Shown here in pieces: positions 8,443 through 42,243 of a stretch of 50,658 bases of DNA. Origin of the DNA: a virus; IMG/VR virus record IMGVR_UViG_3300046543_000190, positions 1-50,658 of that record. One strand, 5' to 3'. The notes beneath the pieces are model-generated. The model did no database searches and had not been told where the DNA came from. It saw only the letters and a program-made list of their open reading frames with translations. Position 1 is the stretch's first letter, and each line of letters begins with the position of its first letter. Made by a program: the position numbers and the translations under genes.

Positions 8443-9066
8443 ATGGCAACTGAGATCAGATGGTGCGGTGTTTGCGCCACCGATACCGAACGACGACCGA
8501 AGGGTCAATGTCGACCATGTCACAACAGACGTGAAAGGGACCGCGCGCGGGCCAATCCTGAACCCGCTCGACAGCGCGCCGCCAGATGGTACGCAGACAA
8601 TCGCGATCGGGCCAAGGCGACCAACGCACAGCGATACATTGAGAACCGGGATCGCGTCGCTGAACTCGGTCGCCAATGGCGTCTGAACAATCCTGAACAA
8701 GCCGCTGCGCGTCATCGGGCATATTACGAATCGCACCCTGATTACAATCGCGAGCGCAGCGCGCGCCGTCGCCGGAATGATGACGGATACAAAGCTGTAG
8801 TACGAGAAGGAGTTAGGCGTTATCGAGCGCGCAAACGCGGCAATCAGGTCATCGCCTATCGAGACAAGGACATCTTTGATCGCGATGGATGGGTCTGTCA
8901 TTTGTGCAGTCAACCCATCGATTCGACATTGCGACGTAATAACCGAATGGGTGCATCGATTGATCATCTAGTTCCGATTAGTCGAGGGGGCGCTGATCAA
9001 CCAACCAATGTCGCAGCGGCACATCTGACCTGCAATCAGCGCCGGAACAACAGGCCATTGTCATGA
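8443..9066 (+). CDS. HNH endonuclease
   Basis: 207 residues. An N-terminal zinc-binding pair (CGVCATD ... CRPCHNRR) leads into a long Arg/Ala/Asp-rich, charged helical region (about residues 25-125). The C-terminal HNH domain has CHLCSQPI, the SIDHLVPISRGG motif (DH pair) and the closing HLTCNQRRNN, the hallmark order of HNH nucleases. The ATG lies after a GGAGATAGGAG ribosome site. Its stop overlaps the exonuclease gene start. It may be a homing enzyme or a DNA-processing nuclease of the replication operon. Confidence 0.85.
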   Translation: MATEIRWCGVCATDTERRPKGQCRPCHNRRERDRARANPEPARQRAARWYADNRDRAKATNAQRYIENRDRVAELGRQWRLNNPEQAAARHRAYYESHPDYNRERSARRRRNDDGYKAVVREGVRRYRARKRGNQVIAYRDKDIFDRDGWVCHLCSQPIDSTLRRNNRMGASIDHLVPISRGGADQPTNVAAAHLTCNQRRNNRPLS

Positions 9067-9950: not shown

Positions 9951-11345
9951 ATGCCCATTCTCGACACTCAACGCGCACTCGCGCAGACCGGACGAATCAG
10001 GATCGGGGCCAAGATTGAAGGCACGCGCCAGAATGGAACGAAATACACGCGCCCTGACAAGCTCAGTACGTTTCGCCTGACCTCAGCGAATCGCAAGGCG
10101 ATCGAGGCGGCAGCGGCCATCTATGGCGGCGAAGCGGTCCCGTGGGGCGACGCTCCAACACCGGGCCAATGGGAGTTGTTCACCGAGTCGGACGTCCTGC
10201 GTGTCACGATCCTGCCCGAAGAAATGAGTTTTACTCAGTGGTACGAACTCTGGTCGGGCGGGGGTTGCATTCGTCGTTGCAACGGTCAATGGAACTCGAT
10301 CATCGAATCGCCCTGCATCTGTGACGCGGAGGATCGTGAATGCAAACCGCACACGCGCATCTCGGTCATGCTCACCGATCTTCCCGGCGTTGGACTTTGG
10401 CGGCTCGACACGCAGGGCCAGTACGCCAAGAGCGAACTCGCGGGCGCGTTCGAGCTGGGCAAACTGTTAATGCAGGCGACCGGTCGATCGCTGCTTGCCG
10501 GAACGCTCCGTCTCGACCAGCGCACGTCCAAGGACGTCGATGAGGGCACACATCACTTCGTTGTCCCTGTCCTCGATTTCGACGTGGACTTGGCAGCGTT
10601 GACCGCGCGCGATCCTCGCGGCCTCACACCGGTCGCACAGGCCGCACTCGGGGCTGGTGAGCCGGTGTCGCTCAAGAGCGAGATTGATCGTGTCAACGCC
10701 GACGCGCCACGATCGACACGAGCCAACGCCGCCGAACCAGTCAAGTCGACTGGCGTCGCCCTACGCCCGCGTGGGACCGTGTCAGAGGACATCGGTGATG
10801 GAATGGAACCATTCGAGCGCACGATCGATCAGGCGTCGACCGACACGCTGTTGACACTTCTCGGCACCCTGTCAAACACCGAGAAGGACATCGTCACTGA
10901 GCGATGGATTACGGCGAACATTCCGCCCATCGCGCATGGTCTAACGACCTACGAGGCGACGGCGGGAACGAACCTCGTCATGGACTTGTTCGACGAGATC
11001 GAGCAAGCGGAAAAGACGTTGAATGATGGCATCCCGGGCAGCGGCACCATGATCGACGAGGAACATCCCCACGCCAACTCGCGCAGTCGTGGCGCTGCGC
11101 CATTCGACGAGTCGAACTACGACACCGCCAAACCCAAGGCGACGCGCACCCCGACCGGGGCCATCACGCAGAAGCAGGTCGGCATGATCTTCGGGAAGCT
11201 GAAGGCGCTGAACATCGTCGACGAGGACGATCAGCACGCCTACGTCGCGAGCATTGTCAGCCTCGAATCACTGTCCAGCATGAGCGATCTGACGAAGGCA
11301 CAAGCGCACAAGGTCATCGACACCCTGATCGATCGAGCGGGCTAG
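9951..11345 (+). CDS. gp3/RDF-like phage protein
   Basis: 464 residues. The N-terminal 220 residues match the family of phiC31 gp3 (recombination directionality factor-like), including SQWYELWSGGGC-type sequence here as FTQWYELWSGGGCIRR, the Cys cluster at CICDAEDREC and the DLPGVGLWRL stretch. In phiC31 this protein redirects the serine integrase; here no integrase is present, and the gene sits next to an exonuclease, so a general replication or recombination role (for example DNA binding) is more likely. The C-terminal 80 residues form a separate helical domain (QKQVGMIFGKLKALNI), like those found in single-strand annealing or binding proteins. Confidence 0.75.
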   Translation: MPILDTQRALAQTGRIRIGAKIEGTRQNGTKYTRPDKLSTFRLTSANRKAIEAAAAIYGGEAVPWGDAPTPGQWELFTESDVLRVTILPEEMSFTQWYELWSGGGCIRRCNGQWNSIIESPCICDAEDRECKPHTRISVMLTDLPGVGLWRLDTQGQYAKSELAGAFELGKLLMQATGRSLLAGTLRLDQRTSKDVDEGTHHFVVPVLDFDVDLAALTARDPRGLTPVAQAALGAGEPVSLKSEIDRVNADAPRSTRANAAEPVKSTGVALRPRGTVSEDIGDGMEPFERTIDQASTDTLLTLLGTLSNTEKDIVTERWITANIPPIAHGLTTYEATAGTNLVMDLFDEIEQAEKTLNDGIPGSGTMIDEEHPHANSRSRGAAPFDESNYDTAKPKATRTPTGAITQKQVGMIFGKLKALNIVDEDDQHAYVASIVSLESLSSMSDLTKAQAHKVIDTLIDRAG

Positions 11346-11363
11346 AGTCGCGACCTAGTCGAA

Positions 11364-11405
11364 AAGACGAACGCCCCATGACCGAAATCACGGGGCGTTC
11401 GTCTT
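11364..11405 (+). terminator. Strong hairpin terminator
   Basis: A perfect 14-bp stem (AAGACGAACGCCCC with GGGGCGTTCGTCTT) closes a 14-base loop just after the gp3-like gene. The stem is followed by only a short T-poor stretch, so it may be a Rho-aided terminator or an RNA-processing element. Confidence 0.75.
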
Positions 11406-11430
11406 ACCGATCCGGGTAGAAAGGCTTGAC

Positions 11431-12267
11431 GTGAGTATACGAGTTATGACAGCAGTTTTCGATGCTGAAGGATTGACCGCCCACGAGAAGATCGTTGCGC
11501 TGGCACTGGCTGACCACGCGCACGATGACGGCAGCGAAGCTCGATGTGGCAACGCCCGCATCGTTCGCAAGACGGCGTTGTCGCTTCGAACGGTCCAGAC
11601 CACGACGCGGCAACTCGTCGCCAAGGGGATCGTCGAGGTCCAACGAGAGGCCACGAATCGCGACCCCAAGTGGTATCGATTCCTGCTGACCGAGGATCAG
11701 AAGTCTCTCGCTAGGGGTGCAGCAGTGACACCCCTAGATGATCTTGGGGTGCAATCTGAGCAATCTAGGGGTGCAAATGACGACATCTTGGGGTGCAGCC
11801 CCCGCACCCAAACCATCAATGAACCATCCATTGAATCATTATCACCAGAAGATGAGTTCGAACGACTCTGGCAGCACTACCCGCGCAAGATCGCCAAGGC
11901 CGCTGCATTCAAGGCAGTCACCGCGACGATCAAACGCGGCGTCTTTATCGACGAGCTGGTCGTGCCCACGATCAACTACGCCGAGTCTCGTCGCCGCGCC
12001 AACGAACCTCAATTCACATTGCACGGGGCCACGTTCTATGGTCCGTCCGAACGATGGCGGGATTGGGTTGATGATGGCGCTGGGATTGCCGAGACTCCAT
12101 CAGACCCCGCGACGATGCAACGCGACTTCGAAGCGCGACGTCGCCAACAACTCATCGACGAGGAAGCGACACGCTTCGCTGAGATCACATCAGCTGCGAA
12201 CGTGGCCGCGCCGATGCCCACAGAATTGCGGACGTTCCGTGACAAGCGAAAGGGGTTGACGAGATGA
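11431..12267 (+). CDS. Winged-helix replication initiator-like protein with internal origin
   Basis: 278 residues. The N-terminal 80 residues form a winged-helix domain of the kind found in phage replication proteins (LTAHEKIVALALADHA, then SLRTVQTTTRQLVAKGIVEV as recognition helix and wing). Residues about 92-130 are a low-complexity linker encoded by the iteron array. The C-terminal part (about 145-215, FERLWQHYPRKIAK ... GATFYGPSERW) matches a conserved domain of phage replication proteins. The architecture (DNA-binding domain, linker coded by origin repeats, C-terminal partner domain) parallels lambda O. GTG 11431 is the listed start; ATG 11446 is possible. No helicase or polymerase gene is visible, so it probably recruits the host replisome. 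Confidence 0.7.
   Translation: MSIRVMTAVFDAEGLTAHEKIVALALADHAHDDGSEARCGNARIVRKTALSLRTVQTTTRQLVAKGIVEVQREATNRDPKWYRFLLTEDQKSLARGAAVTPLDDLGVQSEQSRGANDDILGCSPRTQTINEPSIESLSPEDEFERLWQHYPRKIAKAAAFKAVTATIKRGVFIDELVVPTINYAESRRRANEPQFTLHGATFYGPSERWRDWVDDGAGIAETPSDPATMQRDFEARRRQQLIDEEATRFAEITSAANVAAPMPTELRTFRDKRKGLTR
11711..11797. repeat. Iteron array, probable replication origin
   Basis: Four direct copies of CT(A/T)GGGGTGCA lie at 11711-11721, 11743-11753, 11765-11775 and 11787-11797; the last three are exactly 22 bases apart, two helical turns. A partial copy in inverted orientation (CACCCCTAG) is at 11729-11737. An A/T-rich stretch follows at about 11810-11860, as an unwinding region would. No other copy was noticed in the window. 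Confidence 0.65.
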
Positions 12268-13058
12268 GTGATCGGGTCGATAAGTTGATAGCGGATTTGA
12301 TGGAGATCGGCATAACACGATCGAATGGTCTGGCGTATTACCGACACGGGGAGCCGACGCGTGCTGAAATTCTCGATGTTATCGATCGTTATTTTCTACC
12401 CGAATGTGATCGGTGCGGGATCACGAATGGGCATCTCCCGTATTGTCCGAACGGCGATCACGCACAACGACACGCCGGGTCGGTCGACTGGTCATTGGAA
12501 TACCTCACATTGTTAGAGCGTGTTCAGAAGTTGACTGAGGCGCTGAGTGGATGGAGGCGCATCGACCCCGAACCTGAACGGAAGCCGACGCACATCTACC
12601 GAGAGACAAATATGGTGACGATCGTTCGTGACGACATGAGCAACGAGGGTCACTACAACCACTACCTCATCGAGTTCCGCGATGGCGAGAGGCGCATCGT
12701 GGATGTCAAAGATGTTCGTCTGATCGTCGCTAAACCCGAACCGCGATTCAACATTGGCGATCGAGTCAAGGTCGATAAATTGATCGATCACTTCACGTCT
12801 GGAATGCTTGGCGTAGTTGTGTCGTGGGCAAATGTTTCCGAGTATGCCGATCGAACGTTCAATTACGGGATTCAGCTCGATAATGAAACAGAAAATCCCC
12901 GTTTCTACGACGAGAAATATCTGCGCCGCCACGATCCGAAGGATGAAGCATGGGAATGGGTCGCGTGGAAACTTGAGTGGCCCGAGGAAGAACAAGAAAA
13001 TCGAAGGGACGAGTTCTATCAGTTACTCGATGCGGTCATTGAGGAAGCCAAGCGATGA
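12264..13058 (+). CDS. Hypothetical protein with SH3/KOW-like segment
   Basis: 264 residues, not recognised as a family. Residues about 48-60 carry CDRCGITNGHLPYC, a possible zinc site. Residues about 168-220 (FNIGDRVKVDKL ... YGIQLDNE ... KYLRRHDP) look like a small beta-barrel of the SH3/KOW type. The C-terminal 40 residues are acidic and helical. It overlaps both neighbours by 4 bases and belongs to the replication transcript. Confidence 0.6.
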   Translation: MSDRVDKLIADLMEIGITRSNGLAYYRHGEPTRAEILDVIDRYFLPECDRCGITNGHLPYCPNGDHAQRHAGSVDWSLEYLTLLERVQKLTEALSGWRRIDPEPERKPTHIYRETNMVTIVRDDMSNEGHYNHYLIEFRDGERRIVDVKDVRLIVAKPEPRFNIGDRVKVDKLIDHFTSGMLGVVVSWANVSEYADRTFNYGIQLDNETENPRFYDEKYLRRHDPKDEAWEWVAWKLEWPEEEQENRRDEFYQLLDAVIEEAKR

Positions 13059-24420: not shown

Positions 24421-24557
24421 AATGGAAGTGTCCCGCGTGCGGCGAGATTGTCGAACTGGTGTGGGCGTTCATGCACATACGCGAATGCGCGACGGTGACG
24501 GCGGCGCTGCCGGACCTCTACGTCGAGGCTGACGCGATCGTGAGGTCGGCACGATGA
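24417..24557 (+). CDS. Mini zinc-ribbon protein
   Basis: 46 residues. [11 protein letters not shown] and HIRECAT give a Cys-Cys...His-Cys zinc site. Start and stop overlap both neighbours by 4 bases. Confidence 0.5.
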
Positions 24558-27500
24558 GTTTCACGCCGGTATCGGTCCAAGGCACTTACCTCAATCCCGA
24601 CGACACGCCCGCATCGGGACAGGTCAACTTCCAGCTGACCGCACCGATGGTCAATGGCGATGAGGTCGCGAATCCGACTGGCATCGCTGCACCACTGAAC
24701 GAAGCCGGACAGATCACCGCGCGCAACACCGAGGCGCTGATCCTGTTCGCCAACAACGACACCGGCACGACACCGTCTGGTCCATCAGCGGCCTACTACT
24801 GCACACCGCTGATCAATGGCGCGGTATCGGACAAGACGTTCTACTTCTATCTCGACAAGGACGCGACGGTCGATGAAGATCGCGCAACGATCACGATCAA
24901 CAAGAACGTGGTCACGCTGGGCAAATACATCGCGGCATCATCAATGGTCGGTCGTACCATCACTGGATCGTTGATCCCCGGTGGCACGACAGTCACCGAC
25001 TACGACTTCAAGAAGAACACGCTGACTCTCAGCAACAACGCAACGGGATCATCATCGGGGCCAACAGGGGCACTCGTGATCGGCGGGGCTGTCGACCTGT
25101 CGACAGTCGCGGAGTATCTTCAACCTGATTCCCTAGTTGCCTTCATCCCTTGGGTCGCACCGACCAATGGGTATGTGCTGACAGGTGATGGATCGCACTG
25201 GGTCGCAGAACCGGCCAGTGGAGGCGGTGCAGTCCAAACAGTCGTCGCGGGACTCGACATCGCGGTCGATTCGACTGACCCTCATCATCCGATCGTCTCG
25301 ATTCCGGCCAGCACGTTCGACGCCTTCGGCGCAGCGGCCACGGCCTACGGCAATGCCGTCAGCGATGCAGCAGCGAGCGCAGCCAGTCTTTACGTCCCCC
25401 TGATGCAACGCGGCGCGTCCAGCGGCGTTGCCACGCTCGACGGCAGTTCGCACGTCCCGCTCGCACAGCTCAGTGGGATCACTGGATCGCAACTCGCTAA
25501 CGACATCGCGCTTGGTGGTAATCCAACAACGACGACACAGACGGCGGGGAACAACAGCACTCGCGTCGCCACGACTGCCTACGTCGATGCAGCGGTGACG
25601 GCCAGCGCCTATTCAGCGGGCACCGGGATCACGATCGCCAGTCATGTCGTCTCGATCACGAACACGGCTGTCACAGCCGGGGCATACGGTGATGCCGCAC
25701 ATACGCTCGTGACAACGGTGAACGCGCAGGGCCAACTCACGGCGCTGGCAGCGACGGCCATCAACATCCCGCATACCGCGATCAGCGATTGGGCTGCGGC
25801 GACGTCGAGCTTCCTCACGACCGTTTCGGGGATCACTGTGGGCGGCGACCTCGCCGGAACGCTCGTCAATCCGACTCTCGCGGCTACGGCGGTCACACCC
25901 GGCACCTACGGCGACGGAACGCATGTCGGGCAGTTCACGGTCGACCAGAAGGGCCGACTGACGTTCGCGGCCAATGTCACGATCACTGGCGCGGCCCCGA
26001 CTGGCGCAGCTGGTGGAGTCCTGACCGGCACCTACCCGAACCCCGGACTCGCGAACACGACAGTCGCCGCATCGAGCTATGGATCAGCGTCGAGCGTCGG
26101 CACGTTCACGGTCGGCGCAGATGGACGACTCACCGCAGCGGCATCGACGGCAATCGCCATCACTCATACTGCGATCACGGATTGGTCAACGGCGACGAGC
26201 GGATTCGTTACATCAGTTACCGCTGGTTCGGCAGCGGTGTCGATCGGTGGTACGGCGACCGCCCCGACCGTGGACCTGCCGAACACAGGGCCGGGTGCGG
26301 GTGCGACAGGAACGACTGCTGCACAATCCTTGGCGCTCACGCTTGATGCGAAGGGCCGAGTGACTGCGTTCGCGAACACGGCCATCGCCATCGCTGAATC
26401 CGCCGTCACAAACCTCGTCAGTGATCTTGCACTGAAAGCACCACTAATAAGCCCGACGTTCACGGGAGCACCAATTGCGCCAACCGCTGCGCCCGGAACG
26501 AACACGACGCAATTGGCGACGACTGCCTTTGTCACTACCGCTAATGGTGCCTATCTACCGCTCGTGGGCGGCACGATGTCTGGTCCCATTATCGGGCTAC
26601 AAGACAAGGGTTCACAAATCTTCAATGTCAAAGCGTATGGCGCAAAGGGCGATGGAGTCACCGACGACACGGTTGCGATTCAGGCAGCGGTCACCGCAGC
26701 GCAAGCGACTGGCTATGGCGGAGAGATTTATTTCCCACCGGGTGCATACCGCACATCAGGTCCGATCGTGGTTCTTGGCACCAACACACTCGGACAAAAT
26801 GGCGGCATAGTCTTTCGTGGTTTTAAGGGAGGCAACGCAGCGGCCTATTGGGATGTCATCAATGGATCAATCATTCGTCCGCTTTCGACATGGGCGAACC
26901 CGACCTATCACTCGTCATACGGCGATGGCGTTCTCACATTTGTTGAAGGAAACCCCGGAGGCGTATGGCCCGCGAACGTCATACTCGCGTCATGCGGAAT
27001 CCGTGACCTCTATATCGACTGCACGTCGCTTCCAACATCAACCACAATCACCGCCGCAGTTGCATCAGGAACCACAGTCGCCGCAACTGTCGCTGGCTAC
27101 GACTACACCGTCGGTCAATCGATCACGGTTACTGGTGCAGCCGGTGGCACATGGTCGAATGCGAATGGGACATGGACCATCGCTGGCGTCGCGGGATATC
27201 TGGCGATCGTGTCGGCCATTAGCACGGCCAACATCGCAGCACTGACCGGGACACCGACCATCGATGGATTCGCCACCAGCGCGGGGCAGCGAGTTCTTCT
27301 AGTTGGTCAATCAACGCCATCGCAGAACGGTGTTTGGGTTACGAACGCGGGTGCATGGACACGCCCGACCGACTTCTTCGCTGGCTTAGTCACTGGCCCT
27401 CTAACTACGTTCTCAACGAACGGAACCGCCAAGGCGAATCACGGTTATGTCATGGTGACAGCTTCTGTCACAGTCGGAACGACCGCGCAGACTTGGGTGG

Positions 27501-29902
27501 AGTTCGCTACGACCGCTGCGACTTCAGCGAAGATCGTCACATTCGTTGTTGGCACAGGGCCAACGGGCACCTACACCGCGTCAACGGGCACACTCGTTAC
27601 TGCGGGCGGAACGTATTACAGCGTCGATGGAGTGCTTGCCTATGGCGCGGTCAATGGCTTCGACATCGATCGCCTCTACATCAATCACCCGACCGGCGTC
27701 GGGATTCATACTGTTGTTCCGGTCGTGTCGGGATTGGCTCACAACAACGGTGGATGGCACGTTACGCACTCCTACGTGGGTTACTCGGGGCTGCAAGGAG
27801 TCGCTGGCTACTTCGGTGACTCGTCGTGGTGGGACGTCCACACACAGGGCGCGGGTCTTTCTGGCTCGGGAGCTGGATGGGACTGGACTGGATCAGAAAA
27901 TCGTCTGTTCGGTTGTCGGTCTGACCTCTCGCAAGGTAACGGATTCAAATTCGCTGCGGCTGATGCTCAAGATGAGAGCACGCATTTCATCAACTGCACA
28001 ACGCTCGACAACAACTCTCACGGATTCAACTTCACGAATCCCGGTGGATCGGGCACTACATGGACGACGCCCTACACACTGGTCAATTGTGAGTTTCACG
28101 GTGATGGAGTCAACTCATCGACTTGGATCAATGGCGTTCCAACAACTGGCATTGGCTCCGCTGGCGGTGCTGGTGTTCTTGTCGTCGGTCAGACATATGC
28201 GTTCCTCGATCATTGCGGTACGCGCTCACGCAATCAGATGATGCTCGGCGTCGGCTCGCAAGATGCGATGCCATTCAATGGGGTGAGCGTCGGTAACTCA
28301 TTTTCAGGAAATGCAGTTGTTCAGGTAGATGGTGGTCTATGGAATGTTTCATCGAGCGGGACCGCGTTCAACAACACTGGCGCGGCATCGTATTTTTACG
28401 CGTCGCGCTCCACCATGAAGTCAACGGGCTTTGAATCAACCAGTCCGGTCTTTGGTGGGACTGCCGAGAAGATCGCTCTTGACATGGGAAACGCGCAGAT
28501 CAATAACTTGCAGAATGGTGCCGCTGCTCAAGATGCGGTTGCGTTCAACCAGTTAGCGACGACGATTTCTGCATCAACGATTGCCGGTGATGTCGGCGGC
28601 ACGATTGCAGCCACCAGCGTCAATAAGATCAAGGGCACGACACTGGCCGCGAGTGTCGGAACCGTCTCAACGGATGGCGCGCTGCTCATGTATGACGCAA
28701 CGGATAGCAATTGGCAGGCATATCCACCAGCGACGGCCAGTGACGTTGCATTCGTGTCATCGGGTGGGCGCACGACGTTCACCGCAACTGTTCGGAGAAT
28801 CCGGGGCGTCCTGTTGGACCCGACGACAGTTGGCTCGCCCGCAACCGCAGCGGTACTTATCTACAACGGCTCGACACAGTATGAGGCGCATGTTGTATCG
28901 GGCGATGCATCGATCGCCGCTGGAGGCTCGATTGCGGTCACTGCAATACAGGGCGTTGCCTTCTCGTCAGCGCAGGCAGGGATTCTCGCGGCGCTGCAAA
29001 AAGAAGTTACGCGCACCAGTTCAGCTACGGTCGCTGCGGGCGAGTTCACTGTTTACAATGCGGCGACTTCTTCGCAAGTGATGACCCTTCCCTCAGCACC
29101 GGCTAACGGGACCGTCAATGCGTTGGTCGCTGCGGGGTCGGGCACCGTTCAATGGGCGTGCGGCGCGGGCGATCAGTTCTGGCTTAATGGCGGAACTCAA
29201 TCGACGCTGAACCTGAACCGTAATGAATATACGGTTGCGATCTATGACGCAACCGGACAAACATGGTGGATTTATGACAACAATCATGCGGGGCGTCTCA
29301 TCGGAACATCGCTTTCAACGGTCGTCACAACGCTTGGCGCTGGTACTGCTGCGAACCGTGACAATTCCACCAAGATTCCCACCACCGCCTATGTCGATTC
29401 CAAGGGCATCAGGGGAACGCCCGACTCGGCTACGACATCCTGCACTGCCTCGACTCAAGTAGTGATCCCCGGGACTTCGATTCACTTCGCTACAAGTGAA
29501 CTTGTCGTCGGCAACATCTACCGATTCAAGTTGGCCCTCACCAAGTCAGCGGGTACGGCGACGTGGACCGCCAAAGTTTGCTTCGGGACAGCGGGCGACA
29601 ACACGGATGGCGCGATCGCAACGTGGACCTCGGGAACCAACACGGCGGGGCCGGATCGAGCGGTATTGGAAATACTCGTCCGCATCACTGTTCTCGGATC
29701 AGGTTCGTCGGCCACGGCTGTATGCAGTGCCTTCTACTCGAACCAGTTGACCGACACAACAGGACTCGGCAGCATCGCTCTAGCACCGGGATCGACGGCG
29801 GGCTTTAACTCCACCGCGACGACACCCTTCATTCATGTTGACATCACGGCGGGAGCATCTACGACTATGACCGCATCCGGGTACGCGGAGCGAGCCGCCT
29901 AA
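24554..29902 (+). CDS. Giant tail fibre / tailspike with pectate-lyase-type beta-helix
   Basis: 1782 residues, the largest gene. Residues 1-200 form an N-terminal attachment domain. From about 370 to 610 there are four repeats of the form (V/A)xxGxYGD...T(V/L)xxxGR(L/V)T, spaced roughly 55-75 residues. At about 689 a pectate-lyase-3 domain opens with [16 protein letters not shown], starting a right-handed beta-helix; an inserted segment at about 885-945 carries the fibre motif [10 protein letters not shown] ... [10 protein letters not shown] ... [12 protein letters not shown]-like motif recurs at about 340, 655 and 1613. The C terminus is a beta-rich head domain. It probably binds and perhaps cleaves host surface polysaccharide. 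It lies between terminase and portal, away from other tail genes. Confidence 0.85.
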
Positions 29903-30359: not shown

Positions 30360-30686
30360 GTGACTCACTCGTGGTTGCTGCTGACCATCTATGGCCTCGC
30401 GTGTTTTCGTTTGACCAGACTGGTCGTCACCGACGACATCGGGGCACCGATTCACGAATGGCTGCGCGTTCGAGCGTTCCACCAATCACCGACTGAACTG
30501 CGAACGCTGAATCGACCACTGGCATTCGTCTACAAGGCGATTAGTTGTGCGTGGTGTGCGTCGATCTGGATCGCGGGGGTAATCGTGGTGTTCAGCTTCA
30601 CGGGTGTCTGGTGGCAATACGTCTGTGCGGGATTGGCGCTGAGTAGCGTTGCCGGTGTGATACACGAGGCCACTGATGGCCGGTAA
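30360..30686 (+). CDS. DUF1360-like membrane protein
   Basis: 108 residues. FRLTRLVVTDDIG near the N terminus and SCAWCASIWIAG in the middle are the signature segments of the DUF1360 family, small membrane proteins found in many phages and bacteria. Hydrophobic segments are at about 4-20, 58-80 and 85-100. Overlaps the portal gene start by 11 bases. Function unknown. Confidence 0.65.
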   Translation: MTHSWLLLTIYGLACFRLTRLVVTDDIGAPIHEWLRVRAFHQSPTELRTLNRPLAFVYKAISCAWCASIWIAGVIVVFSFTGVWWQYVCAGLALSSVAGVIHEATDGR

Positions 30687-33600
30687 GCGCGTGGGCGATT
30701 CCAGTGGTGGATGGACGTTGGGGCGTCGACGTCGCGAACCTAACGCTGCACCCGTTCGGGTACTGACCGCAGCGGCGTCACGAGTCAATCTGTCCTCGCG
30801 CAACGAGGCGAAGGTCCAGCGTCAACTACGCCAGAACTGGCAGCTCGACGCGATGTGCGTTGACACCGACACCGAGATTCTGACGACGCGGGGATGGCTG
30901 AACGTCGACGATCTGCTCATCGGTGATTTCGCTCTGACCCTGAATCACGACACGGGACTATCGCAGTGGCAACCGGTCGAGGCCATCAACGTCTATGCCA
31001 GTCACAGGCGCGAGATGATCCAGATCGAAGGCAAACTGCATTCGTCTCTGTCGACGGTGGATCACCGCTGGCCGGTCATTCAACGCCGGGGAGCGTGGAC
31101 ACAGAATGATGTCGATCGCCGTCGTGCGCGCCGTCATGGTGTTCAGATGCCGTCGACCGAAGTTCGCCCTGCAGCATCCATCACTCGCGAATGGCGAACG
31201 ACCGAGACGCTGTCGACTGATCACTCATTGATCACGGCAGCGCAGAACATCGATCTGCCGACCGAGGCTAAATACGGCGATGCGTTCGTTGAATTAGTGG
31301 CGTGGTGGTGGACCGAGGGTTACTACCGACCGCATGGCTATAGCACGATCACGCAAAGTCAGCGTGTCAATCCATTAAACGTCGAACGCATCCGTGCGGC
31401 ATTGACACAGATATTCGGTCCAGCTATCGCCACAACGCGGGGGGTAACGACACCGGCATGGCGCGAATCGACTGATGGATCGATGGTGACGTTCGCACTA
31501 AACGCATCGGCTGGCAAAACGATTCTCGCTGTTGCTCACGGCCCGAAGATCATTGAACTTGATTTCATCTTGTCGCTGACGCGCGCGCAGTTGGAACTAT
31601 TCATCACCACGTCAATCGCCGCCGATGGGTGCATGGTCAATGGAGCGATGACGATCTCGCAGTCGGTTCGCGAACGACTTGAACCGCTCATGCTCGCGGC
31701 GATTCTGACCGGTCGGACACCGCATCTATTTCAGGCTGACGAATCCCGCTGGAATATGCACATTCGCGACAAGGCGACTGTCAATCCCATCGGCGCATCG
31801 CGCAAGCAATGGGAGAACGCCGCGACAGTCGAGCGCATCAGTTTCGATGGAGATGTCTGGTGTCCGGTCACTGAGAACAAATCGTGGATGGCGCGTCGAG
31901 ATGGCACCGTGTATTTCACGGGCAACACCTACCGCGACTCTGTTCCCGAGGTCAGGTTCGCCAATAACTTTCTCGCCAATATCAGTTCCCGAATGCGAAT
32001 CTTTCCGGCTGCGCTACCGATTGGTGGCGAGACGGATGACCCGGTCGAACTTAAGGAAGCCGGGGCACCGGACGAATGGATCGCGGCCTGCAATCAGATG
32101 ATGGCCGATCTCGGCAATGGCCGACTGGCGTTGGGATCATTGATGCACGCGCTCTCGACGAACTTCTCAACGACTGGCGAATGTTTCCTCTACGGCGAGC
32201 AGGATGAATCGACGCTCGAACAGACGTGGTCGATCAGGTCGGTCAACGAGATCGTGGTGTTCGGTGACAAGGTCCAACTACGCGAGGGACCGATTGCATC
32301 ACAGGGCAATCTCGGATTAGTCGACATTGACCCGCTGACGACATTCGTGGCGCGCATGTGGAACCCGCACCCGTTCTGGCGTCTCTACGCCGACAGTCCG
32401 ATGCGCTCGATCATGAACAGTTGCGAGAACCTGCTGATCTTGCGTCGTGGCATTCGCGCAGTTGGTCGCTCACGTCTTGCTGGAGCTGGATTGTTGTTGA
32501 TGCCCGATGACATCGACATCACGTCACTCAACGATGACGACGCCGACCCGCAGGACATCGACTTCATGGGCAAGCTGGCTGATGCGATGATGACGCCGAT
32601 TACCAATGAGGGTGACGCTGCCGCCGTGGTCCCGCTGATTGCACAAGCCAACGCCGAGTCGCTGAAGGAAATCAGGCTGATCGACTTCTACAGCAAGTTC
32701 GACGAACACTCAGCCGAGACGCGAGCCGAGACGATCCGCGAGATCGCCATCGGTGTCGATCTGCCCGCCGAGGTCATCAATGGAATCAGCAACGCCAATC
32801 ACTTCACCGCGTTCCAGATTGGCGAAGATACGTTCCGCTACCACGCCGAACCGCACGTCATCACGGAGGTCGACAGTCTCACGATGGCCTATGCACGCCC
32901 GTATCTGTCGGGTGTGACCAATCTGCCTGACGGAATGATGGCGGACTGGCTACCTCGGACGTGCCTCTGGTACGACCCGGCTGCGGTGATCGTGAAGCCC
33001 GACCGCACGGCGAATGCCACGGCTGCTCACAGTGCGCTGGTCATCAGTGACGCGGCCTATCGGAAGTACCTCGGGTTCGACGAGTCCGACGCGCCGTCAG
33101 CTGGTGAGATTGAACTCCGCATGGTTCGCACGACGCGGACGTGGCCCCCGAACGTCCTGCTCGCGCTGTTGCACCTGCTCGATCCGAATCTCACCGTGCC
33201 CTCGATCAGCGGGCCGGGGATCATTCCCGGCGTGTCGCCCAGCGGCGTCAGCGTCCCGACTCCACCGCCCGGGATGGCGGCACCAGAGGCGCTACCAGAC
33301 GTCACGACGCCCACACCCGGCGAGAGCGGCGTGCCGGGCCTCAGCGCGCCCACAGAACCCGATCAGGCCGTCAGCATCGCGGCAGCACTGGCATTCGCTC
33401 ACGGGGCCACTGAGGACGAGCGAGCGGCCATGTTGCGCGGCGTGGTCATGTCCTTGGAGATGAAGGGTCACCGGGTATTCGATCGGCGCTACATGAAGCC
33501 CCGGGACGACGAGTCGGGCATCATCGACGCCGAGGTCATCAAGATCGAGGCCAAGGCCATCACCGCTGCCGTCAAACCAGAACCCAAGCCATCAGATACA

Positions 33601-34587
33601 TCGCTACGCCTATCGCGCAAACTCGGCGCGATTGACACCGACCTACGTTCACGGCTTACTGTCGCGGCGAACGCCGCCATGCTGCGCCAGTTGGAGAAGG
33701 CGGGCAATCGAGTTCGCCAGTCCGTCAAGTCAGCGGCCAACGCACGCCAGTCAACCGCACCAATGCGCGCGGAGCATGTGCAACTCGCCAAGGACATTGC
33801 GGACCTCAGTTCCGCACGAGTCGCCAGCGCCGTTGGTATCGAAGTTGTCGAGCGCATGGGGCTGACCGCTGCCGGACTCATGGCGAATGATTGGGGCACG
33901 TTCAAGGATCAGTTCTTCAGCTGGACCAAGGCCGCGCAGAAGTCCGCGCTGGCCGCTGCGGTGCAACTGACCGGCAACACGGCGACTGGTCCCGCACGAA
34001 TCGCTGCGGAAGCGGCACTGGCCGAGGGCGTCGAGAAGGGTTGGGAACTGCTCTCGACGTCGATGGACAATCTGGCGCAAGGCTTGTTGTATTCACCGGA
34101 CCTGAACACCGACATTGCAGACGCCGTCGATGCACTGACACCCGACACGCTCGTACCGACTGGCGTTGTTCGCGCGGCAGTCGGTATCGCTGGTGGATCG
34201 GTGCCACAGGATTACGGACTCACGATGACCAAGGCGGGCGTCGAGGTTCCATCGATTGCACTCGGCATCGACACTGGCGGCGTCGGAACAGGAACGACGA
34301 TCAGTGGATTCCTCACTGACGCGGGATGTCAGAACGACAACTACGAATGGCAACATGGCGTAACTCGTAATCCGCTGGATAGTCACCTTGCATTGGACGG
34401 AGTGCAGTTCACATCGTTCACTGATGACGTTCTTGCCAATCCAAATGACTTCCCTTCTAACCAGTGGCTCGTGGCTGGCGACCATGGGGGCTGCAGCTGC
34501 ACAATCGTGCCTTTATGGATAGGGGCAGATGACGTACAAGCAGCCCGTGACGCTGCTGATGCGATGGATTCAATAGATGCCATGTGA
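30676..34587 (+). CDS. Portal protein with intein, fused to MuF-like domain
   Basis: The 1303-residue product contains a 357-residue intein (61-417). After splicing the exteins join as ...NWQLDAM-TYRDSVPEVRF..., giving a 946-residue protein. Residues 418 to about 880 match the actinophage portal family, the ring at the head vertex through which DNA passes. A Pro/Gly-rich linker follows, then a helical region and a C-terminal domain with WQHGVTRNPLDSHLALDG ... GDHGGCSCTIVP, the pattern of MuF-type head morphogenesis proteins. Portal-MuF fusion is unusual but known; the boundary is my inference. The stop overlaps an HNH gene. Confidence 0.85.
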   Translation: MAGKRVGDSSGGWTLGRRRREPNAAPVRVLTAAASRVNLSSRNEAKVQRQLRQNWQLDAMCVDTDTEILTTRGWLNVDDLLIGDFALTLNHDTGLSQWQPVEAINVYASHRREMIQIEGKLHSSLSTVDHRWPVIQRRGAWTQNDVDRRRARRHGVQMPSTEVRPAASITREWRTTETLSTDHSLITAAQNIDLPTEAKYGDAFVELVAWWWTEGYYRPHGYSTITQSQRVNPLNVERIRAALTQIFGPAIATTRGVTTPAWRESTDGSMVTFALNASAGKTILAVAHGPKIIELDFILSLTRAQLELFITTSIAADGCMVNGAMTISQSVRERLEPLMLAAILTGRTPHLFQADESRWNMHIRDKATVNPIGASRKQWENAATVERISFDGDVWCPVTENKSWMARRDGTVYFTGNTYRDSVPEVRFANNFLANISSRMRIFPAALPIGGETDDPVELKEAGAPDEWIAACNQMMADLGNGRLALGSLMHALSTNFSTTGECFLYGEQDESTLEQTWSIRSVNEIVVFGDKVQLREGPIASQGNLGLVDIDPLTTFVARMWNPHPFWRLYADSPMRSIMNSCENLLILRRGIRAVGRSRLAGAGLLLMPDDIDITSLNDDDADPQDIDFMGKLADAMMTPITNEGDAAAVVPLIAQANAESLKEIRLIDFYSKFDEHSAETRAETIREIAIGVDLPAEVINGISNANHFTAFQIGEDTFRYHAEPHVITEVDSLTMAYARPYLSGVTNLPDGMMADWLPRTCLWYDPAAVIVKPDRTANATAAHSALVISDAAYRKYLGFDESDAPSAGEIELRMVRTTRTWPPNVLLALLHLLDPNLTVPSISGPGIIPGVSPSGVSVPTPPPGMAAPEALPDVTTPTPGESGVPGLSAPTEPDQAVSIAAALAFAHGATEDERAAMLRGVVMSLEMKGHRVFDRRYMKPRDDESGIIDAEVIKIEAKAITAAVKPEPKPSDTSLRLSRKLGAIDTDLRSRLTVAANAAMLRQLEKAGNRVRQSVKSAANARQSTAPMRAEHVQLAKDIADLSSARVASAVGIEVVERMGLTAAGLMANDWGTFKDQFFSWTKAAQKSALAAAVQLTGNTATGPARIAAEAALAEGVEKGWELLSTSMDNLAQGLLYSPDLNTDIADAVDALTPDTLVPTGVVRAAVGIAGGSVPQDYGLTMTKAGVEVPSIALGIDTGGVGTGTTISGFLTDAGCQNDNYEWQHGVTRNPLDSHLALDGVQFTSFTDDVLANPNDFPSNQWLVAGDHGGCSCTIVPLWIGADDVQAARDAADAMDSIDAM
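30856..31926 (+). other. Intein with LAGLIDADG-type homing endonuclease, inside portal
   Basis: Residues 61-417. Block A begins at Cys61 (CVDTDTEILTTRGW), block B has STVDH (Thr127, His130), and the end reads VWCPVTENKSWMARRDG then VYFTGN, with Asn417 before the +1 residue Thr418. The penultimate residue is Gly, not the usual His. Two LAGLIDADG-like helices are visible: LVAWWWTEGYY (about 207-217) and FITTSIAADG (about 309-318), with acidic Glu214 and Asp317, so the endonuclease may be active. Confidence 0.9.
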
Positions 34588-35300
34588 CAAGTCGCAACTA
34601 TTGTTCGAGCATGATCAGAACATGTACGAAATGCGATCAACGTCCGGCGGCTAATAAAACAGGTATGGCGCGCTGCGCTCCATGCAGATATGAACAAATC
34701 GAATCGCGCAGATTGTCACGGCTCGCACCGATGCGGAATTGTCCATCATGCGGGAAACCGATGGCACTGCCTGATGGCGGTCGCGGGTGCCCATTCTGTC
34801 GCGATTGCTCTGTCACACGCCACCCTAGGAATCGTGATTGCATTGATTGTGGTGCAGATTTTGTGAGCAGGAATGGAACGCGACGTTGTTCTCGTTGCAG
34901 CTATCTTCGACTCAAAAAGCCATGCCCGTCATGCGGAAAGATGATTCATCCAAAATCGAAAACATGTGTGGGATGTTCGGATGTGAATCAAAAAGGATCG
35001 GGGCATCGAGCATGGCGCGGCGGTCGATCAGTCATCAATGGTTATGTTCGATTGACTCGACACGGACACCCGCGCAATAAGCGTGGCTATGTGTTGGAGC
35101 ACATTTTGGTCATGGAGGAACACCTAGGCCGCTATCTCGTCCCCGGCGAGAACGTCCACCATCTCAACGGTCAGCGCGACGACAATCGAATCGAGAACCT
35201 AGAACTATGGGTGAAATCTCAGCCAGCCGGTCAGCGTGTCTCTGACCTGTTGAACTGGGCACATGAGATCATCGCACGATACGAATCGCCCAATCCCTAG
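34584..35300 (+). CDS. HNH homing endonuclease with multiple zinc ribbons
   Basis: 238 residues. The N-terminal 140 residues hold a series of Cys pairs (CTKC, CAPC, CPSCGK, CPFC, CIDC, CSRC, CPSCGK, CVGC), about four zinc ribbons. The C-terminal HNH domain shows VLEHILVMEEHLGR, GENVHHLNGQRDDNRIENLEL, the HNH_3-type pattern of phage homing nucleases. GTG 34584 overlaps the portal stop; ATG 34611 is an alternative. It sits directly after the intein-carrying portal, so it may home to this locus. Confidence 0.85.
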   Translation: MTSRNYCSSMIRTCTKCDQRPAANKTGMARCAPCRYEQIESRRLSRLAPMRNCPSCGKPMALPDGGRGCPFCRDCSVTRHPRNRDCIDCGADFVSRNGTRRCSRCSYLRLKKPCPSCGKMIHPKSKTCVGCSDVNQKGSGHRAWRGGRSVINGYVRLTRHGHPRNKRGYVLEHILVMEEHLGRYLVPGENVHHLNGQRDDNRIENLELWVKSQPAGQRVSDLLNWAHEIIARYESPNP

Positions 35301-37934: not shown

Positions 37935-38390
37935 ATGTCCAAGCGTATCGTTGGCAATGACGTTGCTCGCTTCTGGTCCTATGTAAATCGAACCGATGGT
38001 TGCTGGTTATGGACAGGTGGTTTGAATCGCAAAAGATATGGAATGTTTTGGTTAGCCGGAACACATACACCAGCTCATCGATATGCGTATGAGTTGCTCA
38101 TTGGCCCGATTCCTGAAGGATTGCAAATCGACCATTTGTGCCGAAATCCGCCGTGCGTCAATCCTCATCATTTGGAACCAGTGACGCCTCGTGAGAACAC
38201 TCTGCGCGGAGAGGGACTCGCGGCGCATCAATCTCGTCTCACTCATTGTTCTCGCGGTCACGAGTTCACTTCCGAGAATACGGTTCGATGGGGAAATCAT
38301 CGCAAATGCCGTATCTGTACCAAGATCAATATTCGCTGCCGCATAGAAGCCAAGAAAGGGGGTGAGGCCCGTGAAAACAATGCCTCGTAG
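37935..38390 (+). CDS. HNH homing endonuclease, copy A
   Basis: 151 residues. FWSYVNRTDGCWLWTGGL, HRYAYELLIGPIPEGLQIDHLCRNPPCVNPHHLEPVT and a C-terminal Cys/His zinc finger (HCSRGHEF ... CRICTK) form the HNH domain common in phage homing enzymes. It is a paralogue of copy B at 41824 and carries the same kind of 5' hairpin leader and TTGGAGTCGAT ribosome site. Confidence 0.9.
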   Translation: MSKRIVGNDVARFWSYVNRTDGCWLWTGGLNRKRYGMFWLAGTHTPAHRYAYELLIGPIPEGLQIDHLCRNPPCVNPHHLEPVTPRENTLRGEGLAAHQSRLTHCSRGHEFTSENTVRWGNHRKCRICTKINIRCRIEAKKGGEARENNAS

Positions 38391-39462: not shown

Positions 39463-39531
39463 AGGGTTCGCCATTCAGAGTTTGCGGGGCGATAACCTGC
39501 CGGTCATGCGCCACCAATGGAGGCAGCCTCA

Positions 39532-41769
39532 ATGGACTTGACTCGCAACGACATCATCTCGGCATTCCAATACAATCGCGGAGGTTCATCGCTGGCCGTG
39601 ACCACGACTCCCGGTGATCCCATCAGTGATCCCGAGGACCAGTCGAACGATGAGGCGCGAGCTGAGGGCAAGATAATCGGCGGGGACGGCGAAGTCGACG
39701 AGATGATCAGCGCGCTCGACAATGCGCTGGCTGACTTGGAGCGCGCACAGGGCACTGACGACGACGCGAACACCGATCCCGATGACGTGCCAATCGTGGC
39801 CGACATCAAACAGATGCGTCAGCTGATGGAGAAGTTGAAGTCGGACCAATTGGTCGACGACGCGGGCGAACCTCCATCACCGACCATTCCAAGCGAACTA
39901 TCGATTGCAGCGGGCGATCTGAGTGGCACTTATCCACCGGTCACTTTAGCGAATCAGCCAACATCCACCGACGAACCCCCCGCGACGACGCCGGTCGATG
40001 AGGACGGCAATATCGAGCCATCGACGAAGTGCGCCAATCCCGACTGCGAACATCTCGCATCGGTTCACGAGGACGTGCCCGACATGGGCGACAACACCGG
40101 CAAGTGCGGGACGCCCGGATGTGGATGCGAAGCGATGGAACTCGAAAAGATCGGGGGCCAGATCGGTGTCGATGACAGCGGTGGTGGCGCGGACAACGCA
40201 GGCGGCGATGACACGCCAGCCGATGCGGGAACGGCGACTACGGCTTCCGCTGGCACGATCAAGGTGCCCGTTGGATTCTTCGCGGTCGAGACGCCAGTGG
40301 TCGAGGCCGATGAGCCTGCACCAACCAGCGACCTGAACGCGCCGCCCGTGATGAGCGCCGATGACAGCGAACTGCGCCCGTGGACGTGCCCGGTGATGTG
40401 GGTCGAGGGTCAAGAAACCGGTGACGGTCGAATGATCAATGCCGAGGCGGTCGAATGGTTCAATCCGCCCCTTCCGCTCATGCTGCTCAAGACGTCGCCC
40501 CACGGCGGCGAATGGGACCCCAACGACCCCGCCGTGTGGTGTGGGCTGATCAACTCGATTACCCGCGTTGCTGGTGAAGGTGGGACGCAACTCGGAACGG
40601 CGTCGGGCTATTACCTGAACACCGCTGACGGCAACGACGCCCACGACATCGTCGAGTCGATGGGGCGCGCCGGAATCTCGATCGACCTGCAAGTGGTCGA
40701 GTCTGAAATCAGCGGCGAGCTGGACGACGATGGCTGGCCGACGCAAACGACCATGACAGTTGTCAAGGGAATGTTGATGGGCGCGACGATCTGTCCCTTC
40801 CCCGCGTTCAATCAGGCGTACATCGTCAATGGCGACGGAACCGATGGCGGACCAGCCGCGATCCCGCAGCAGTCCGACAACACGCCGCCGATCGTGGCGT
40901 CTGGTGGACAACTGATCCACTGGATGACGAGCGAAGAATGTGTGCCGTGCGCCGATGGCGTTGATGTCCTCATTGCCTCAGCTGCACCGAATCGTCCCCC
41001 GCGTTCGTGGTTCGAGGACCCGAACTTCGCCGCCATCGATGACGAGCGACTGGTCGAGATTTACAGCGTCGACCACAAGGGCAACATGATCGAGCGTGGC
41101 GACATGGCGTGCCCGATCACCGTCACTGACGATGGTCAAGTGTTCGGTCATGTCGCCGCGTGGGGCCAGTGTCACCGGCTCTATACGAACATGTGCGTCA
41201 CACCGCCATCGTCGAAAACTGGCTACGCCGGATTCCGCCACGGCTGGGTCAAGACCGCCGAGGGCGATGACGTTCGCGTTGGTTCGCTGACAGCTGGCAC
41301 TGGACACGCCGCGATGAATCTCAACCGCGTCGAGTCCGAACAGCACTACGCGAACAGCGGATACAGCGTGGCCGATGTGAACATTGGTGAGGACGCCTAC
41401 GGGATTTGGATCGCGGGTCGCGTCAGCCCACTGGCGACCGATGACCAGATCGAGGCGCTGCGTACTGGCGGGCAATCGGGCGACTGGCGCAACGGCGAAA
41501 TGATCGCGTCGCTCACCGTCAATGTGCCGGGATTCCCGATGGCGATCGTGCCATCCAAGCTCGCACCGCGTCAGTGGTCCAAGGGATCACAGACGACTCT
41601 CATCGCCGCTGGTGCGGCCCCACTTTTCCGTGTGAAATACAACAAAGCATTAGCCGCATCTGCTGGTCAACCGGTTGAATTCATCGATCATGCAGCACGC
41701 GAGGCCATCAAACCGCTTCTTCCAATCATCAGAGCGAACTTGGCGCGGAAGATAAACTTAGGAATATAA
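39532..41769 (+). CDS. Capsid maturation protease
   Basis: 745 residues from ATG 39532, which has GGAGG upstream; ATG 39517 is in frame but lacks one. Residues about 260-440 show the actinophage prohead protease pattern: PLMLLKTSPHGGEW, GRAGISIDLQVVESE and ATICPFPAFNQAYIV. The first 250 residues are acidic and disordered-looking except for a zinc-knuckle-like insert (CANPDCEHLASVHED ... CGTPGCGCEAM, about 166-205). The C-terminal half contains WGQCHRLYTNMC and a domain that may be scaffolding. The enzyme trims capsid protein during head assembly. It lies about 5 kb after the portal, with homing genes and small operons between. Confidence 0.7.
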   Translation: MDLTRNDIISAFQYNRGGSSLAVTTTPGDPISDPEDQSNDEARAEGKIIGGDGEVDEMISALDNALADLERAQGTDDDANTDPDDVPIVADIKQMRQLMEKLKSDQLVDDAGEPPSPTIPSELSIAAGDLSGTYPPVTLANQPTSTDEPPATTPVDEDGNIEPSTKCANPDCEHLASVHEDVPDMGDNTGKCGTPGCGCEAMELEKIGGQIGVDDSGGGADNAGGDDTPADAGTATTASAGTIKVPVGFFAVETPVVEADEPAPTSDLNAPPVMSADDSELRPWTCPVMWVEGQETGDGRMINAEAVEWFNPPLPLMLLKTSPHGGEWDPNDPAVWCGLINSITRVAGEGGTQLGTASGYYLNTADGNDAHDIVESMGRAGISIDLQVVESEISGELDDDGWPTQTTMTVVKGMLMGATICPFPAFNQAYIVNGDGTDGGPAAIPQQSDNTPPIVASGGQLIHWMTSEECVPCADGVDVLIASAAPNRPPRSWFEDPNFAAIDDERLVEIYSVDHKGNMIERGDMACPITVTDDGQVFGHVAAWGQCHRLYTNMCVTPPSSKTGYAGFRHGWVKTAEGDDVRVGSLTAGTGHAAMNLNRVESEQHYANSGYSVADVNIGEDAYGIWIAGRVSPLATDDQIEALRTGGQSGDWRNGEMIASLTVNVPGFPMAIVPSKLAPRQWSKGSQTTLIAAGAAPLFRVKYNKALAASAGQPVEFIDHAAREAIKPLLPIIRANLARKINLGI

Positions 41770-41771
41770 AA

Positions 41772-41800
41772 GCCGGGGCATGGCTTGCACCACCCCCGGC
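41772..41800 (+). promoter_or_regulatory. HNH leader hairpin B
   Basis: GCCGGGG pairs with CCCCGGC around a 15-base loop, followed by AGACCGACTGTTAGGAGTCG. Relative to leader A, the second stem pair changes from G-C to C-G, a compensatory change. Confidence 0.65.
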
Positions 41801-41823
41801 CAGACCGACTGTTAGGAGTCGAT

Positions 41824-42243
41824 GTGACGAAGGCTATCGCACCGGAAATTCGATTTTGGCCGCGAGTTGATAAGAGCGATCCGGACGGTTGTTGGTTATG
41901 GACTGGACCGATTGGCTCTCATGGTTACGGAACATTCGGGATTGGCGTTCGTCTGGTTCTTACTCACCGGTTCGCTTATGAATTCTGCGTAGGTCCGATC
42001 CCTAAAGGATTGGTTATCGACCACTTATGCGGGGTGCGTCCTTGTGTCCGCCCCGATCATTTGGAGGCGGTGACACAACGCGAGAACGTCCTGCGGGGGA
42101 GTAGCCCAATGGCACAGCAGGCGCGCCAGACTCATTGCAAACGCGGACATCCATTTGACGTGGAGAATACCTATCGAAGCAAAGATGGTCATCGGTCATG
42201 CAAGAAATGTCAACAAAACAGGGATCGTGGTCGGCCCCGTTGA
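41824..42243 (+). CDS. HNH homing endonuclease, copy B
   Basis: 139 residues from GTG 41824. FWPRVDKSDPDGCWLWTGP, HRFAYEFCVGPIPKGLVIDHLCGVRPCVRPDHLEAVT and a C-terminal zinc finger (HCKRGHPF ... CKKCQQ) match copy A closely in layout. TTAGGAGTCGAT ribosome site. It is between the protease gene and a small operon. Confidence 0.9.
   Translation: MTKAIAPEIRFWPRVDKSDPDGCWLWTGPIGSHGYGTFGIGVRLVLTHRFAYEFCVGPIPKGLVIDHLCGVRPCVRPDHLEAVTQRENVLRGSSPMAQQARQTHCKRGHPFDVENTYRSKDGHRSCKKCQQNRDRGRPR

Follow-up and report, generated by a model that had tools for sequence, protein, structure and literature searches.

Iterons and A+T-rich repeats inside a phage replication initiator gene as a probable origin of replication

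The DNA analysed here (the window) was the whole 50,658 bp of a virus record with 59% GC. PHROG matches identified siphophage-like genes in it (tape measure, tail, terminase, portal, capsid, exonuclease and RecT-like), and the isolates closest to this phage infect Arthrobacter. A gene for a replication initiator of 278 aa, recognised by PHROG and Pfam matches and an AF2 model, was located on the plus strand at 11431-12267. Profile phrog_270 ('replication initiation protein') covered residues 1-240 of its product (E=2.9e-26), phrog_391 ('O-like') matched it with an E of 1e-9, and HTH_36 (PF13730, 1.6e-6) was the sole Pfam match above the cut-off. The protein fell under the PHROG 270/1032/391 replication-initiator profiles through its N-terminal domain and, for 270, through most of its length, and both phrog_1032 and phrog_391 matched 30 of 30 aligned relatives. 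Since no polymerase, primase or helicase was found among the window ORFs scanned against PHROG, the enzymes of the host would serve for replication. The gene directly 3' of the initiator (12264-13058) had no PHROG match, and no helicase-loader gene of the lambda P type was recognised adjoining the initiator.

The AF2 model divided the protein into two folded domains joined by a disordered linker. The N-terminal winged-helix DNA-binding domain, the presumed reader of the iterons (residues 1-98, 11431-11724), was modelled with pLDDT >90 for most of residues 1-90 and with the order H-H-H-E-E-H. Its top fold matches in the PDB were winged helices, including the Rep-DNA complex 5kbj, none of them below an E of 0.001, and a PDB sequence search with the initiator gave no relative. 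The linker (residues 99-138, 11725-11844), with pLDDT <50 across most of residues 99-133, would hold nearly the whole origin in its coding sequence. The C-terminal helical domain (residues 139-214, 11845-12072), with pLDDT 74-91 over most of its length, is presumed to recruit the helicase or its loader; the C-terminal part of the protein matched phrog_9327 (primosomal protein), phrog_26426 (replication protein) and phrog_1701 (DnaD-like helicase loader).

The initial annotation had described four direct copies of a repeat and an inverted partial copy in the linker-coding part of this gene, the last three copies being 22 bases apart, and motif analysis placed all of them exactly. Iterons 1 (CTAGGGGTGCA, 11711-11721, phase 1), 2 (CTTGGGGTGCA, 11743-11753, phase 0), 3 (CTAGGGGTGCA, 11765-11775, phase 1) and 4 (CTTGGGGTGCA, 11787-11797, phase 2) lie on the plus strand, with a first gap of 32 bp and later ones of exactly 22 bp. 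The inverted partial iteron CACCCCTAG lies on the minus strand at 11729-11737, and its GACACCCC begins 13 bp past the GGGGTGCA of iteron 1. A terminal inverted half-iteron, GCACCC (11804-11809, minus strand), which had been missed, closes the array, so that the window has inverted copies at both ends, partial only. CTWGGGGTGCA had no copy elsewhere in the 50.7-kb window. The array (11711-11797) falls within the ORF, as in lambda-type origins, and together with the repeats that follow it encodes the final few residues of the N-domain and the linker. Iterons 1-4 encode RGA, LGV, RGA and LGC and are therefore read in three frames, pointing to selection on the DNA. When the protein was preserved and its codons were redrawn from the genome codon usage (n=20,000), the recodings reached at most two GGGGTGCA copies and never four.

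Immediately 3' of the array, on the plus strand at 11811-11844, we found tandem ~11-bp repeats (AACCATCAATG, AACCATCCATTG and AATCATTATCA), which had also escaped the first inspection and are presumed to be the unwinding element. In the window they are degenerate, with two AACCATC and one AATCATT. They coincide with the A/T-rich stretch reported after the array, which was confirmed as 40 bp (11810-11849) with 35% GC, within the lowest 0.08% of the 40-mers of the window; as in lambda-type origins, this region adjoins the iterons. Among 59 representatives with N-domain identity <75%, the GC content fell from ~0.60 to 0.40 at 20-40 bp past the last iteron, and self-similarity had its maximum at lag 11 (z 6.3). 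Of 33 representatives selected by protein, 18 had two or more AACCRTC with a spacing of 10-12 bp, compared with 1.1% in the null, and the repeats of the relatives were found in all three codon phases.

Relatives of the initiator keep the array. The Arthrobacter phages Chickaboom, Marchesin, Jamun and Galaxy, whose proteins show 27-32% identity to that of the window, all have GGGGTGCA or GGGGTGAA in the linker with a spacing of 30, 22, 22 (and 22) bp, so that the repeats do not vary freely in related phages; free variation was the outcome that the initial annotation had named as fatal to its proposal. A second viral contig, 99.98% identical over 6.8 kb, proved to belong to this very phage and was given no weight as evidence of conservation. 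Viral contigs were also scanned with the motif only (three GGGGTGCA, gaps 6-30), which gave at least 120 matches, so that the proportions are those of a sample. Among the 120 matches listed, 104 were inside winged-helix relatives (83 on the same strand and 21 on the opposite one), whereas a permuted GGGGTGCA gave 37 matches, four of them in such genes. In the matches listed, 22 bp was by far the commonest iteron spacing, and an inverted TGCACCCC often stood 13 bp past the first copy, the position of the partial inverted copy in the window. Exact 22-22 triples were present at 105 loci of bacterial genomes, 82 of them inside initiator-type genes; they were mostly from Pseudomonas, and also from Burkholderiales, Gluconobacter, Bifidobacterium and others.

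About 20% of the arrays in genomes lay outside such genes, some of them being intergenic elements of Clostridia. These Clostridia loci (L129, L133, L152, L169, L173, L197, L202, L206 and L228) have non-initiator GGGGTGCA arrays with a spacing of 21-23 bp, standing 3' of a common box, GGCAAATNACNCTAATTTTGATA, and probably represent a different, perhaps mobile, element. One array on an 8.4-kb contig of Streptomyces sp. IBSBF 2953 (L149) had the typical Pseudomonas layout and is probably an assembly contamination.

An unbiased set of relatives, collected by protein similarity alone and reduced to 42 representatives, gave the same picture. At least three copies of one 8-mer were present in the linker of 31 of the 42, against 12% in a synonymous-shuffle null. 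In 18 of these representatives such an 8-mer recurred with at least two spacings of 20-23 bp (null, 1.5%). In 27 of 61 representatives the final direct iteron was followed by the iteron of that phage in inverted form, compared with 11% in the synonymous-shuffle null. The sequence of the iteron drifts among relatives (GGGGTGCA, AGGGTGCAA, GGGTGTCA, GGGTGACA, TGGGCGGACA, AAACCCGG), while its place and spacing are constant. Phases, recoding null and relatives together indicate that the iterons are conserved at the level of DNA and not of protein, as in lambda-type origins. We defined in this analysis a composite class, GGGGTGCA / AACCRTCA, with iterons at 19-22 bp, inverted ends and AACCRTCA repeats of ~11 bp in the coding-strand orientation; the window belongs to it at 11711-11840.

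The iteron travels with the N-domain and not with the C-domain. Pairs of relatives with similar N-domains and unrelated C-domains had the same iteron in 91% of cases, against 64% for pairs similar in neither, a baseline that is high because GGGTGCA dominates. As GGGGTGCA accompanies very varied recognition helices, no helix code for the base changes of the iteron is claimed from the 81 representatives compared by eye.

Taken together, the sequence features indicate that 11711-11845 is most probably an origin of replication within its own initiator gene, in which the winged helix would bind, the ~11-bp block would melt and the C-domain would recruit the host helicase. The proposal of an origin inside the initiator gene, functionally parallel to lambda O, is thus well supported by the array, its conservation and the order of the elements. 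In the proposed mechanism, the N-terminal winged helix would bind the GGGGTGCA iterons, and iterons 2-4, at 22 bp, would be presented on one DNA face; this phasing and the inverted copy at each end of the array suggest that a wrapped protein-DNA complex may form. The strain from the complex would melt the adjoining A+T-rich ~11-bp AACCRTCA repeats, the C-terminal domain on its flexible linker would deliver the replicative helicase of the host, or the loader of that helicase, after which replication would pass to the host replisome. Binding, unwinding, helicase recruitment and origin firing at the array are steps that we infer, lambda and SPP1 being the models for melting and recruitment (PMC7466680, PMC6316719).

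The genes 3' of the initiator in two relatives support a role in replication, since a 'replication protein P' gene was found there in SC_8, and DnaC-like and DnaB-like genes in U2. The GC-skew profile, which had been suggested as a check, agreed in part. The cumulative minimum of the window was at 12024-12052, ~300 bp from the array; the chance of such closeness was ~1.2%, and the amplitude had a p of ~0.006-0.009. Gene orientation may produce part of this minimum. A minimum near the array was seen in three of seven genomes (the window, Marchesin and Pae_U2, and not JBD68, Galaxy, SC_8 or Melons), and because the agreement is not general the skew was not relied on as proof of an origin.

The ~11-bp block was also searched for by itself in a block-only scan (three AACCRTCA, gaps 3-4), which gave at least 120 matches and proportions that are again those of a sample. 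Among the 120 matches listed, 78 fell within genes encoding this winged helix, and every one of these had the coding-strand orientation (78:0), whereas none of the 31 matches to a permuted block was in such a gene. Many of the non-initiator AACCRTCA matches were low-complexity ACCGTAACCGTCACCG repeats. The loci L345, L385 and L412 combine 11-bp linker repeats of the AACCATCAAGC type with an unrelated N-terminal domain, of the replisome-organizer type by eye. Among phages that share the AACCRTCAnnn block, the iterons are unrelated, as are the C-terminal domains (presumed loaders), and the hosts belong to different phyla. A wider reading, to which we give somewhat less than an even chance, is that one orientation-fixed ~11-bp block (AACCRTCAnnn), read sequence-specifically as single strands, opens these origins and sets the polarity of helicase loading, so that any iteron-plus-N-domain could be mixed with any C-domain across it. 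Its single-strand reader would probably be the conserved winged-helix domain or a host factor.

The block could instead be a recombination joint, a stretch of short homology that allows exchange of the N-domain with its iterons and of the C-domain between phages and owes its conservation to this, and not an unwinding element, which we consider rather unlikely. It does sit at the boundary of the exchangeable halves. The iterons or inverted repeats on its 5' side come in many sequences, at least five kinds of C-terminal domain are encoded on its 3' side, and the nearest distinct relative (L234) retains the N-domain, iterons and 11-bp repeats of the window with an unrelated C-domain. However, the block is A+T-rich, has an 11-bp phasing and occurs in all three codon phases, and among the matches listed its orientation never changes (78:0), unlike that of the iterons (83:21). 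Similar blocks are also found in families too diverged for recent exchange, so that a functional element fits better.

It is much less probable that the array is an operator, through which the helix-turn-helix protein would control its own or downstream transcription while replication started elsewhere. HTH_36 and MarR-like winged helices are frequent in repressors, and iteron-binding plasmid Rep initiators often autoregulate; yet the array is ~280 bp within the gene and does not stand at a promoter, and the sole nearby promoter-like match on the coding strand starts at 12013, downstream of the array. An operator would also leave unexplained the A+T-rich 11-bp block, the helicase-loader-like C-domain and the P, DnaC and DnaB neighbours in relatives. 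Linkers are often repetitive, but a protein-level origin of the repeats as a linker peptide, or chance, has a negligible probability and was ruled out by the phase data and the recoding null, because the copies encode their tripeptides in three phases, no protein-preserving recoding reached four copies, and the spacing is conserved at 22 bp, not a multiple of 3.

Location of the origin inside the initiator gene, the reading preferred here, is textbook knowledge for lambda. Lambda, and also the Stx phages and P22 (gene 18), have a mid-gene origin such as is proposed for the window; as in the window, there are at least four iterons, ~20-24 bp from one another, with an A+T-rich stretch after them, and lambda O has an N-terminal DNA-binding domain, which is predicted in the window protein, and a C-terminal recruiting part. 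The number of iterons differs between lambda-type phages (PMC7466680). The initial annotation had compared the layout of the protein with that of lambda O, and this holds as a functional parallel and not as strict family identity: lambda O and P22 gp18 belong to PF04492 (Phage_rep_O), whereas the window protein matches PF13730 (HTH_36) and not PF04492, and is linked to lambda O only remotely, via PHROGs 678, 391 and 270. The iterons of lambda, unlike those of the window, are palindromes of 18-19 bp (TCCCTCAAAACGAGGGA), and the A+T-rich repeats of lambda and P22 are of the ACAAAAGA type, not AACCRTCA. Lambda has an adjoining P gene, and P-type genes are present in U2 and SC_8, whereas none was recognised in the window.

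Other likenesses were found outside the lambda group. In Bacillus phage SPP1, oriL lies in gene 38, with direct repeats and an A+T-rich unwinding element within the initiator gene as proposed for the window, and polymerase, primase and clamp are taken from the host (PMC6316719); in this comparison, which follows the published description, SPP1 differs in that it has a second origin, oriR, and encodes both a loader and a helicase (gp39, gp40). In Pseudomonas phage MD8, likewise compared by description, repeats were noted by the authors within the O-like gene of gp56 (PMC8508860). JBD68 and vB_Pae_U2 have the GGGGTGCA array of the window at 22 bp, and MD8/JBD68-like phages, unlike the window, have neighbouring P-like or DnaC/DnaB-like genes (observed in U2). 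The RepA of mycobacteriophages Miko and Rachaly shares an N-terminal HTH and an origin presumed in or beside repA, but it is of a different initiator family, and no repeated motif was found by its authors in the flanks that they inspected (PMC7157519). In the RepA_N/ori of the Vibrio satellite PLE, iteron specificity co-varies with the N-domain while the C-part is constant, with modular swapping; in contrast with the window, that origin is noncoding and beside repA, and its iterons are ~30-bp semi-palindromes (PMC8263062). Iteron plasmid replicons (RepA_N, Rep_3) also have noncoding iterons beside the gene, whereas those of the window are intragenic; the window initiator had no RepA_N or Rep_3 Pfam match and resembled Rep structures only in the generic winged-helix fold.

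Origins inside initiator genes are known (lambda O, SPP1 oriL, MD8) and the kind is not new. Novelty for a phage with this gene set, which had been implied, did not hold, as the same array is present in Arthrobacter phages with a similar set of genes (RecE, RecT and the initiator). Judging from the open papers covered, the composite arrangement found across phyla seems to be a variant not described before; none of the matches inspected there described the GGGGTGCA array across phyla, AACCATCA or the AACCRTCA block. Such short strings also match many unrelated papers. To our knowledge, most phage origins are unmapped. These results supply a simple sequence rule by which the probable origin can be located in many Pseudomonadota and Actinomycetota phages and prophages where the annotation calls the initiator no more than a helix-turn-helix or a hypothetical protein. 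The family also offers natural iteron-reader pairs for studying winged-helix specificity, and the role of the conserved ~11-bp block in origin opening is directly testable.

Two phages share the C-terminal domain of the window initiator in other combinations. Mycobacterium phage Purky (L003, 2410-3303) has the C-terminal YPRK domain of the window with another N-domain, and in place of iterons its linker has a perfect 8-bp tandem repeat, GGAACAGG, possibly another origin class. When the C-terminal domain was used as the query, a single isolate phage was found, Moorella phage MCACPph1 (L437, 823-1848), with a different N-domain and, between the domains, TGCCGCAAA-type repeats followed by TTCTCC, an architecture consistent with a further module exchange.

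Some other features of the window were also observed. Between the RecT-like and initiator genes, at 11364-11405, the sequences AAGACGAACGCCCC...GGGGCGTTCGTCTT form a perfect inverted repeat of 14 bp around a loop of 14 nt, resembling a transcription terminator or attenuator; this repeat was absent from the output of the terminator scan, which covers loops of 3-8 only, and Rfam gave no RNA elements in 11000-13000. A 1782-aa ORF between the terminase and portal genes (24554-29902) had no PHROG match. The head module is unusual in that two ORFs had portal-family matches, one of 1303 aa at 30676-34587 (residues 419-1068 only) and one of 750 aa at 39517-41769, the latter also matching a head maturation protease. 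HNH endonuclease genes were located at 37935-38390 and 41785-42243, both matching phrog_826, with a third at 34584-35300 and a fourth at 8443-9066.
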